Positions 1 to 15,686 of a stretch of 64,000 bases of DNA are shown piece by piece (within the stretch, counting starts at the first letter, position 1; each line of letters starts with the position of its first letter). The DNA comes from Pseudoxanthomonas sp. PXM01 (GTDB taxonomy: Bacteria > Pseudomonadota > Gammaproteobacteria > Xanthomonadales > Xanthomonadaceae), in NCBI RefSeq assembly GCF_014851815.1, contig NZ_JACVAJ010000001.1, positions 1,488,001-1,552,000 on the forward strand. The letters are read 5' to 3'. A model generated the notes under the pieces. It made no database searches, was not told the DNA's origin, and worked only from the letters and a program-made list of their open reading frames with translations. The translations under genes and the position numbers were made by a program.

Positions 1-432
1 AGAGAAAGGCCGGGAGATCGCGCCCGGAAGGCCATGGATGGGCCTCTGAGCGCCATCGATCGGGCTCCGAAGGCCATCCATGGGGCTCTGAGCTCCAGGG
101 ATCGGGCCCGGAAAGCCATCGACGGGCCTTTGAGCGCCATGGCTAGGGCTCGGAGGGCCATCGATGGGGTCCAGAATGCCAACCGCCGGGGCTTTTCGTG
201 CCATCGGTGGCTTTCCGGGCGCCATCGATCGAGCGCCGAGCCTCGTTGATCGGGCTTGGGAGGCCATCGATGGTGCTCGAAGGCCCATCAATGGGGCTCA
301 AAGAGCCAGGAAGATGGGGCTCGGAGGGCGATCGATGGGGCCCGGAGCCCCATCGCTGGCATTCCCAGCGCCATCGATGGCATTACGGGCTCCGACGATG
401 GCTTTCGGAGCGCCATCGTCGGCACTCCGGAC
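1..432. repeat. Degenerate 21-bp tandem repeat array
   Basis: About 20 imperfect copies of a 21-bp unit run from the left window edge to roughly 432, so the array may continue outside. The best copies carry the 10-bp palindrome CCATCGATGG followed by a G/C-rich half of the form GGCTC-GAG. Spacing is almost strictly 21 bp, with one or two copies of 22-23 bp. Because 21 is a multiple of three, most frames stay open on both strands and read as heptapeptide repeats, but no frame has a convincing start or ribosome site. The array ends about 20 bp past the stop codon of the regulator gene that points towards it. I see no gene in it. Confidence 0.75.
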
Positions 433-451
433 TCGATCTCCGCCGTGGCCG

Positions 452-1195
452 CTACACCTCGCGCGAGCGCCGGTACGGATTGAACAGCTGCAGCAGCCAC
501 GGCTTCTGCGCCAGCACCAGGCTGACGCCCACGCGGTCTTCCGCCGGCAGTGTGGCGTCGCGGGCGAGCAGCGCGTCGAACTCGCGCGCGACTTCCTCCA
601 GCCGCTGCCGCAGCTGCTTCACCCCGTCGATGCTCAGGCTGCCGCTGAGCAGCAGCAGCGCGTCCTGTTCGCCATCGAAGGGATCGGCGAAGTAGTCGGT
701 CAGCAGGGTGTGGCGGAAATAGCGCTCCATCGGCCCGTCGGCGCGCCAGCGAAAATTGCGTGCTGTCAGCGCGCGGCCGCGGTTGCCCGGCATCAGCTCG
801 ATGATGCCCAGCCGGTCCAGCTTCACCAGCAGCCCGGTCCACTGCGCCGGGGTGAAGCCGAAGTGGCCCAGCACATCGTCCTGCCGCCAGCGGTTGAGGG
901 TGAGGAACAGCGCCAGCAGCAGCGTGGGCTCGTCGACCAGCGCCTGTTCCTGCGCCTCACTGAGCAGCGCCATCGCCTTGCGCCCGCGCGAGGCCTCTGC
1001 ACTGAGTTCGGCCAGGCCGACGTCGAGCACGTCGCAGATCTGTTCCAGCCGCTGCAGGCTCATGGCCCGGCGGGAGAACATGCGCTTCACCGCCGCCTCG
1101 CTCATGCGGATGCGCGCGGCGAGCTCACGGTAGGTCAGGTTCTGCGCGCGCAGGCAGCGCTTCAGGGCATCGACCAGGTCGACCGAGACGGCCAT
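452..1195 (-). CDS. XRE-family helix-turn-helix regulator
   Basis: A 247-residue cytoplasmic DNA-binding protein. Residues 5-60 form an XRE/Cro-type helix-turn-helix (LTYRELAARIRMSEAAVKRM followed by a second amphipathic helix, then ICDVLDVGLAEL). The remaining ~185 residues are a conserved-looking helical effector or dimerisation part that I cannot assign. The ATG at 1195 is chosen because the domain begins directly there; the upstream in-frame extension is arginine-rich and unlike the family. The gene is divergent from the 1306 gene, with a 110-bp shared promoter region, and its stop abuts the 21-bp repeat array. Target genes are unknown; autoregulation or control of the divergent gene is an inference. 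Confidence 0.8.
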   Translation of the reverse strand: MAVSVDLVDALKRCLRAQNLTYRELAARIRMSEAAVKRMFSRRAMSLQRLEQICDVLDVGLAELSAEASRGRKAMALLSEAQEQALVDEPTLLLALFLTLNRWRQDDVLGHFGFTPAQWTGLLVKLDRLGIIELMPGNRGRALTARNFRWRADGPMERYFRHTLLTDYFADPFDGEQDALLLLSGSLSIDGVKQLRQRLEEVAREFDALLARDATLPAEDRVGVSLVLAQKPWLLQLFNPYRRSREV

Positions 1196-2573: not shown

Positions 2574-2977
2574 GGGACGCCGCGCAAGCCGGTACGTCAC
2601 AGGTGCCTGCCAGCGTGCGGGCTTTCCGCGTGCTCTCGCGGCTACTGGTCGCCTGCGTGCTGACGTCGATCCCGATGCATCTCGCGCTGCTCATGTCCGA
2701 CAGCGCCATGTATCGCGGCTGGGTCTACCTGCAGATGGCGCTGCTGACGGCATCCGCCTGGCTGCTCTGGCGCGCACGCAAGCTCGATGGTCGTGCGGTT
2801 ATCGCCCTCCCGCTGACGACGATCCCCGCGATCCACATCAACGCCACCTATCTGAACTACGGCAATGGCCCGCTTGCCTGGTCGCTGCCACTTGCACTCG
2901 GCCTTTGCTACGTCGCGCTCTACGTGACCGCCCGCGCTGGCACGACGCGACAACCCGGCGCGAGCGCCGCGGAATGA
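2570..2977 (+). CDS. Four-helix membrane protein, unknown
   Basis: The GTG at 2570 overlaps the previous stop as GTGA, giving 135 residues; an upstream ATG at 2531 in the same frame is possible but would overlap by 43 bp. Four hydrophobic segments are visible (about residues 19-40, 48-64, 73-92, 101-122), so this is an inner-membrane protein. Charged residues between segments 2 and 3 (RARKLDGR) predict a cytoplasmic loop. No domain recognised. It is the last gene of the 1306-2977 group of exported or membrane proteins. Confidence 0.6.
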   Translation: MRDAAQAGTSQVPASVRAFRVLSRLLVACVLTSIPMHLALLMSDSAMYRGWVYLQMALLTASAWLLWRARKLDGRAVIALPLTTIPAIHINATYLNYGNGPLAWSLPLALGLCYVALYVTARAGTTRQPGASAAE

Positions 2978-3031
2978 CGTGCCGCGGCCAACGATGAGAT
3001 CGGCGCACCCCGCTTCCCCGAGGAGATCGAT

Positions 3032-3445
3032 ATGTTCCTGACCCTGCTTGTCGTCACCTTGCTGCTTTCCGCCTCAGTAGCGTGGGGCGTGACCTGGATG
3101 TTCTCGAAACCGATCGAACGCATCCTCACCCGCATCATCGCCGACGACATCAGCAAGGCGCGGCTGCGCTACATGCAGTTCGCCGTCCTCGTGGTCGGCG
3201 TGTCGTCCGGCGTACGCATCCACGAACTGGAGCGCTACATCACCGCGCCGCAGTGGATGGAGAAAGACAAGGCGCAGATCATCGCGCTGACCACCGAGCG
3301 CTGGGTACTGGAGGTCTACCGCACTGTCATCGAGACATTGCAGGGCATCGCCTGGATGTTGCTGGCGTTCTTCGCCGCGGCGCTGCTGGCGTATGTGGTG
3401 GTGAGGTTGTCGGAGTTGAAGCGGGCGGCATCCGCGGCTCCGTAG
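3032..3445 (+). CDS. Two-helix membrane protein, unknown
   Basis: 137 residues. Hydrophobic helices at residues 1-22 (MFLTLLVVTLLLSASVAWGV) and about 104-128 flank an amphipathic central region with the strings ADDISKARLRYMQF and AQIIALTTERWVLEVYRT. The start is supported by GAGGAG eight bases upstream of ATG 3032. Similar short proteins are common hypotheticals in Xanthomonadaceae; I recognise no family. Confidence 0.6.
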   Translation: MFLTLLVVTLLLSASVAWGVTWMFSKPIERILTRIIADDISKARLRYMQFAVLVVGVSSGVRIHELERYITAPQWMEKDKAQIIALTTERWVLEVYRTVIETLQGIAWMLLAFFAAALLAYVVVRLSELKRAASAAP

Positions 3446-15239: not shown

Positions 15240-15686
15240 TTAGATCAGCGGAGCCGGGGTGGCCGGCAGCGCGACGGGGGCCGCTTTCTTCTTGGACTTC
15301 TTGGCAGGCTTCTTGGCGGCCTTCTTCGCGGCCTTCTTGGCCGGCTTCTTGGCTACTTTCTTGGCAGCCTTCTTCGCGGTCTTCTTGGCAGCCTTCTTAG
15401 CCGGCTTCTTGGCGACCTTCTTGGCAGCCTTTTTCACGGACTTCTTGGCGGCCTTCTTGACGGACTTCTTGGCAGCCTTCTTCGCCGGCTTCTTGGCTAC
15501 TTTCTTGGCGGCCTTCTTGGCGACCTTCTTCACCGCCTTCTTGGCCTTGGCGACCTTCTTGGCGACCTTCTTGGCAGCCTTCTTCACTGCCTTCTTCACG
15601 GTCTTCTTCGCAGCCGCCTTCTTGGTGGCCTTCTTGGCGGCCTTCTTGGCGGCCGGTTTTTTCTTCGCAGCTTTCTTCGTTGCCAT
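15240..15686 (-). CDS. Histone-H1-like Lys/Ala-rich DNA-binding protein
   Basis: 148 residues composed almost wholly of KKAAKK, KKVAKK and KKPAKK pentads and hexads, ending in an uncharged tail (PVALPATPAPLI). It matches the HctB/AlgP-type histone-H1-like proteins that bind DNA non-specifically and compact it. GAGGAG stands 8 nt before the ATG. The nucleotide sequence is itself a string of near-identical repeats of the form CTTCTTGGC on the plus strand, so length can change by slippage. The upstream 0.9 kb carries no gene and may hold its control region. The gene has its own terminator. Confidence 0.85.
   Translation of the reverse strand: MATKKAAKKKPAAKKAAKKATKKAAAKKTVKKAVKKAAKKVAKKVAKAKKAVKKVAKKAAKKVAKKPAKKAAKKSVKKAAKKSVKKAAKKVAKKPAKKAAKKTAKKAAKKVAKKPAKKAAKKAAKKPAKKSKKKAAPVALPATPAPLI

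Follow-up and report, generated by a model that had tools for sequence, protein, structure and literature searches.

Intergenic arrays of a 21-bp double-dyad unit, spaced in whole helical turns, are candidate nucleoprotein platforms in Pseudoxanthomonas

The window, as we call the whole stretch of DNA analysed here, comprises 64,000 nt (G000:C4:1488001-1552000) of the 4.18-Mb genome of Pseudoxanthomonas sp. PXM01 (G000). At its left end lies an array of degenerate tandem repeats, placed between a gene that we take from its sequence to be pckG (PEP-carboxykinase-like), on the left, and a gene for an XRE-family regulator, on the right, both on the minus strand. The features are:

16..438, no strand: the array, with 20 dyad-to-dyad units, 18 of 21 bp, one of 22 bp and one of 23 bp
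163..184, no strand: the 22-bp unit, a +1 step in the 21-bp register
290..312, no strand: the 23-bp unit, a +2 step
452..1195, minus strand: XRE-family regulator of 247 aa with a Cro/C1-type HTH (Pfam HTH_26, E 1e-8)

The limits of the array come from a periodic HMM (L009 6017-6439, that is, window 16-438). They bear out the first-pass annotation, which had described about 20 degenerate 21-bp units, but the array stops 13 bp short of the stop end of the XRE gene and not the 20 bp given there. Along the array, seven 21-bp units are followed by one of 22 bp, five more of 21 bp, one of 23 bp and a last six of 21 bp; each end of the array starts at a half-palindrome (GATCG.. and ..CGATC), and the HMM finds no unit in the 171 bp between the array and the next gene to the left. 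Allowing one mismatch, the decamer CCATCGATGG is found at 12 positions in window 1-432 and at 4 in the remaining 63.6 kb; 2000 Markov shuffles of window 1-432 contained it 0.08 times on average and never more than 2 times. Just three copies in the array are perfect, so it was right to say that the units carry the palindrome "or a close variant". Tandem Repeats Finder, the check proposed at the time, does see the 21-bp period (64-70 % matches) but on its own picks up only the parts 16-169 and 264-359. Elsewhere in the window, at 15240-15686 on the minus strand, a 12-bp tandem repeat encodes a 148-aa Lys/Ala-rich KKAAKK-repeat protein, presumably histone H1/AlgP-like by its appearance.

The genome of strain PXM01 contains at least four such arrays, all intergenic, the other three lying at C4:79 kb, C4:756 kb and C6:314 kb. 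From them we built a 52-base sequence model and searched other genomes, scoring the best 14 to 150 candidates in each. Matches were found in 16 of 38 Pseudoxanthomonas genomes (E <= 0.01). At family level 35 of 395 genomes matched (E <= 1e-3), 15 of them in Pseudoxanthomonas, and the matches in the 20 outside the genus are mostly weak. At order level 3 of 299 genomes matched (E <= 1e-4), two of them Pseudoxanthomonas and the third, L181, without a tandem array by Tandem Repeats Finder. A strict two-unit pattern has four exact matching stretches in the genomes of 84,980 species, all in Pseudoxanthomonas. A wider pattern, GCATCGATG-N(3-26)-CATCGATG, matches in 115 of 395 genomes, many of these probably chance matches in genes; it was badly chosen, because its leading G excludes the main CCATCGATGG units. 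The same pattern hints at two consecutive 21-bp steps in G083.

From the matches listed we assembled 44 array loci in 13 genomes for statistics, leaving out the array loci L123-L125. The 44 loci correspond to eight places. One is represented by a single locus and the other seven are syntenic clusters, found in 13 genomes (the window place), in 10 (the ligA place) and in 5, 4, 4, 5 and 2 (the remaining five). An array is present at the window place in 13 of the 13 genomes analysed. The genes flanking the arrays have no common theme, the ten flanking proteins scanned being LigA, NorB-like, ClpB, EAL, glyoxalase, tail-tube, OmpA, endo/exonuclease and two without a Pfam family. Genomes assembled as one contig hold five arrays (G015) and six (G061); even placement around these chromosomes (P = 0.021 and 0.068, respectively) is too weak to claim. 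LigA at least 88 % identical is encoded in 15 genomes, 14 of which have array matches. The exception is G014, a one-contig genome whose XRE protein is 96 % identical and in which the 150 best candidates scored yielded no array match; the array is therefore dispensable. Directly past the XRE stop of G014 (L139), where relatives carry the array, stands an inverted pair, GGAGCGGGCCATGCCCGCGATGC ... GCATCGCGGGCATGGCCCGCTCC, which we take to be REP-like. Upstream of ligA, five of 12 loci were read: arrays are present in G000 and G017 and absent from G027 and G028, and G020 retains about two degenerate units.

Over 640 units from the 44 loci the consensus is C-S-A-T-C-G-A-T-S-G-S-N-Y-T-C-S-G-A-R-N-S. 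Two dyads make up the unit, CATCGATG and TC-S-GA, with their centres 10.5 bp apart and both strands used equally; the former is centred between two bases (positions 5 and 6) and the latter on a single base (position 16). Mirrored columns differ in base frequency by about 0.03 or less, the spacer words at positions 11-13 match the reverse complements of those at 19-21 with r = 0.99, and the half-spacer words (GGC, CTT, AGC, CAC, CAT and a few others) are equally frequent on both strands. Summed information is about 9.9 bits over positions 1-10 and about 6.6 bits over positions 11-21, the palindrome being the better conserved part of the unit. Two alternative half-sites, TCTCA-CAT and (C/T)GCAA-GG, sometimes stand for GATSG with the register unchanged. 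Within 70 bp outside an array end, TCTCA points towards the array at 30 of 44 loci and away from it at 2 (shuffles, 2.7); examples of TCTCA(CATT) in this position are L010 (about 4302), L100 and L110, and the motif also occurs internally as an alternative half-site. In the L110 array of G017 the palindrome has drifted to different perfect palindromes, CCGACGTCGG and CCAGCGCTGG. Inner hexamers that are perfect and non-consensus number 20 over 628 units, against 6.5 by chance (sd 2.5), and 12 against 4.7 without G017, whereas perfect spacer dyads are rarer than expected by chance (18 against 31.6, sd 5.2). Array length ranges from 234 to 438 bp, with a median of about 338.

The step from dyad to dyad is exactly 21 bp in 554 of 656 cases by the HMM, longer in 98 and shorter in 4. 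The HMM penalizes deletions slightly more than insertions, and a count made without it agrees: among 289 distances from one near-perfect core to another, 208 are multiples of 21, and of the rest 78 lie above a multiple and 3 below, with a distance of 85 bp found thirteen times and 84 bp never. Mean spacing is 21.172 bp (sd 0.099 across the 44 arrays), or 10.586 bp per turn. Long steps recur, 45 of the 58 intervals between them being four to seven units (mean 4.9), and they are more even than in shuffles of step order, with a summed residual about the 21.17-bp line of 13.0 compared to 21.8. The residual is below the array's own shuffle median in 37 of the 44 arrays, among which orthologues are not independent; the evenness is clear in some arrays only, and four of the 44 are without any long step. 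Of the other 12 arrays at the window place, 8 likewise contain two long steps and the remaining 4 contain no such step. Spacing is regular also at unrelated loci. These step statistics, together with the indel counts given below, point to selection for spacing in whole helical turns, as expected of a phased protein-binding array.

Tandem arrays with the same 21-bp period and a CATCGATG-like core were also seen with different spacers, in other Xanthomonadaceae genera (L115 in G134, 3097-3335; L116 in G385, 2904-3153; L117 in G160, 2546-2773; L121 in G246, 1-304; L122 in G263, 3133-3267) and in another Pseudoxanthomonas lineage (L061 in G019, 1335-1705). The G385 array has 22-bp steps and one 20-bp step as well. 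These arrays suggest that the 21-bp phase outlives the spacer sequence.

For comparisons between species, sets of 9 and 11 close pairs were hand-picked among the most similar orthologues. The arrays of 11 orthologous pairs differ by 462 substitutions (13.0 % of sites) and 6 indels that are not multiples of 21, three of them in one pair, while the adjoining 120-bp flanks of the same pairs differ by 349 substitutions (15.3 %) and 34 indels (Fisher p = 1e-7 for indels per substitution), although some flanks align down to 62 %, which may inflate the flank gap count. When the comparison is limited to the 10 flanks of at least 88 % identity, with 7 indels per 92 substitutions, p is 0.003. Since the flanks are partly coding, the indel test is conservative. 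One 21-bp gap and one 19+2 gap were also seen in the 11 pairs, and array lengths differ between species. The substitution rate in the arrays resembles that of the flanks, and sequence constraint is therefore modest. In three pairs both the array and the adjacent XRE gene were measured: the difference was 9, 12.5 and 15 % of sites for the whole array and 23, 25 and 21 % of four-fold sites for the gene. The positions that change least are those of the core. We conclude that spacing is held more strictly than unit sequence. A C-G exchange at positions 2/9 was considered as a sign of selection and dropped, because it is also the commonest change at four-fold sites.

An eroding minisatellite was the alternative offered in the first-pass annotation. 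As a selfish or neutral repeat, it would grow by slippage and by template switching between self-complementary units and then drift without function, with strand symmetry arising through inverted copying. Traces of such copying exist: recent duplication is clear in two of the 44 arrays, L093 (29 % repeated 16-mers) and L109 (16 %), L097 (7 %) and L083 (6 %) are mildly raised, and one unit has been copied in inverted orientation between L114 and L105, as in a self-propagating satellite. Repeated 16-mers within arrays average 2.1 % direct and 0.9 % inverted, a small general excess over the 0.4 % of simulated independent arrays; without the two duplicated arrays, however, within-array sharing falls to about 1.1 %, compared to 0.8-1.5 % between different arrays. 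On a midpoint-rooted tree of LigA from 27 of the 37 genomes that encode it, array presence is clustered yet needs at least four changes, the G134 array of another genus has near-identical units (89 % matches), and the modest constraint on sequence, the missing array of G014 and the one-unit remnant of G020 all fit a drifting repeat. The units of the window array, by contrast, have no 16-mer in common, their phase and consensus persist, and most arrays lack the mark of a minisatellite or VNTR, units alike by recent copying. Nor would drift account for the depletion of indels, for long steps that are one-sided and evenly spread, or for arrays retained at the same place in 13 genomes, and a deficit of perfect spacer dyads relative to chance is not what inverted copying would yield. 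The duplications, the inverted copying and the absence from G014 show that ordinary repeat dynamics make and lose arrays; as the whole explanation, a functionless minisatellite is unlikely, although it deserves to be taken seriously. Arrays at different places might descend from one another by ancient duplication or have been assembled independently. Shared unit order is slightly in excess between non-orthologous arrays: in 220 sampled pairs it has a median z of 0.85 (7 % above 3), compared to 0.46 (2 % above 3) in 120 null pairs, and even in 60 orthologous pairs the median z of this weak test is only 1.47 (23 % above 4).

As an operator of the adjacent XRE regulator the array would control pckG or the regulator's own gene, which the adjacency kept in 13 genomes and the Cro/C1-type HTH might favour. 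Yet arrays of the same family at seven other places adjoin unrelated genes, the array lies downstream of the XRE gene and away from its promoter, and nine genomes that lack an array at the window place still encode an XRE orthologue 83-97 % identical: G020 has one unit left, GAGATCGG-GCTCCGAGC-CCCATCTC, and G012, G013, G014, G025, G026, G033, G035 and G036 have a short array-free gap between the XRE gene and pckG. We consider such an operator very improbable; the regulator is probably a neighbour and not the protein that binds the array. Of the original proposal of cooperative binding, the two-turn phasing is supported, given the indel depletion, the regular spacing and the better conserved palindrome, and the XRE protein as binder is not supported. 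If transcribed, the array could work as a structured RNA (long or serial hairpins, a terminator or a sponge), and window 1-432 indeed folds 8.8 sd better than its dinucleotide shuffles, with Watson-Crick covariation at three inner pairs of the CATCGATG dyad (z 3.4 to 6.5). Self-complementary repeats, however, fold well whatever their order, and over the 44 arrays the real unit order is no better than a shuffled one (mean z -0.27, sem 0.15; three arrays below -2 and one above +2). The spacer dyad has no excess pairing (z -3.2 to +1.2), pairs into neighbouring palindromes are mixed (z -5.0 to +4.8), Rfam has no match in four loci, and the gene settings, with ORFs chosen by a G+C rule, are both co-directional and convergent. 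Some covariation of the CATCGATG dyad remains, but a specific fold is unsupported by the unit-order shuffles and the spacer dyad, and an RNA role is improbable. Since 21 bp is seven codons, a living or decayed gene for a heptad-repeat protein was also considered: at least one frame is free of stops in 37 of 44 arrays, and a heptad can be read in one frame of the array of G160. Against this, the spacing shifts the frame in 40 of 44 arrays, the window array has stops in six frames and the constraint is symmetric on both strands, and we reject a coding sequence on its frame shifts and stops as having next to no chance of being right. Scarcely more credible is a statically curved element, the phased curved region of the first-pass annotation. 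G+C content does have a periodicity of 10.5-10.6 bp, with stronger power at 5.25 bp, but the one dinucleotide wedge model applied predicts no excess curvature, with 27.0 degrees compared to 28.8 in shuffles (mean z -0.17, sem 0.20).

It was also claimed that nothing in the known families explains the array, and this holds for the searches that we made: there was no match in Rfam for four array loci, none in plasmids and phages with one array (L010) as the query, none in viral contigs with the strict pattern, and, among the papers listed, no title on these arrays, nor any on bacterial repeats among those listed that contain CCATCGATGG. Plasmid centromeres (sopC of F, parC of R1, tubC) are tandem arrays of many protein-binding repeats, on which a protein condenses or bridges. 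The present arrays are likewise tandem and many-unit, with a putative binding protein, but they are chromosomal, four to six per genome at unrelated intergenic places, no par gene is found among the ten flanking proteins scanned, the units are strongly diverged and the register has longer steps. REP/BIME elements are noncoding intergenic palindromic repeats present several times per genome, all of which applies here too; we know of no REP or BIME forming 21-bp helix-phased tandem arrays. Titration clusters of the datA type are few in number and lie on the chromosome without an obvious target gene, as do the putative sites described here, but the DnaA boxes of datA are irregular and of known identity, unlike the strictly spaced sites of these arrays. 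VNTR loci of Xanthomonas are reportedly tandem, lineage-limited and subject to occasional copy-number change, and in this they resemble the arrays, most of which differ from those loci in being unhomogenised and depleted of indels. We regard the arrays as a variant of phased binding arrays, with binding putative, and as a family without a match in Rfam (four loci) or among the titles of the papers listed.

Our preferred reading is that each array is a helix-phased nucleoprotein platform bound by a putative symmetric protein, and we put its probability at roughly 0.55. The unit with its two dyads, the strand symmetry, the conserved position, the indel depletion, the spacing with recurrent longer steps and the independence from the XRE gene were all computed directly and support it. 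In such a platform CATCGATG would alternate with TC-S-GA to present a dyad every 10.5-10.6 bp, a period at which all dyads of an array, over some 235-440 bp, lie on one side of the helix in unbent B-DNA. Alternating an even-length with an odd-length centre is the integer way to set a dyad each 10.5 bp, and one more base at intervals of a few units brings the average to 10.59 bp. Such a pattern is what selection on helical phase would leave. A putative homodimeric or polymerising protein may coat or bridge that one face of the array; we infer both its binding and its symmetry. About four to six intergenic platforms per chromosome with unrelated neighbours suggest a chromosome-scale role, which might be nucleoid anchoring, bridging or protein titration, rather than the control of single genes.

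More speculatively, and with rather less confidence than in the platform as such, the arrays could represent a new class of chromosomal element: long nucleoprotein platforms that track the helix with dyads each 10.59 bp, in which a step longer by one or two bases every few units would hold all sites on one face of relaxed B-DNA, so that selection would act on helical phase itself while unit sequences turn over. A nucleoid protein of this Xanthomonadaceae lineage, forming filaments or bridges, might use four to six of them as chromosome anchors. Few natural DNA elements show selection on helical phase so openly, and the arrays illustrate that strong patterning in a repeat need not mean either a plain minisatellite or a local operator. 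If a protein coats the arrays, they would provide a natural measure of the helical repeat which that protein meets in the cell, a tool in the form of a long one-faced array of sites, and a handle on a new nucleoid or segregation factor.
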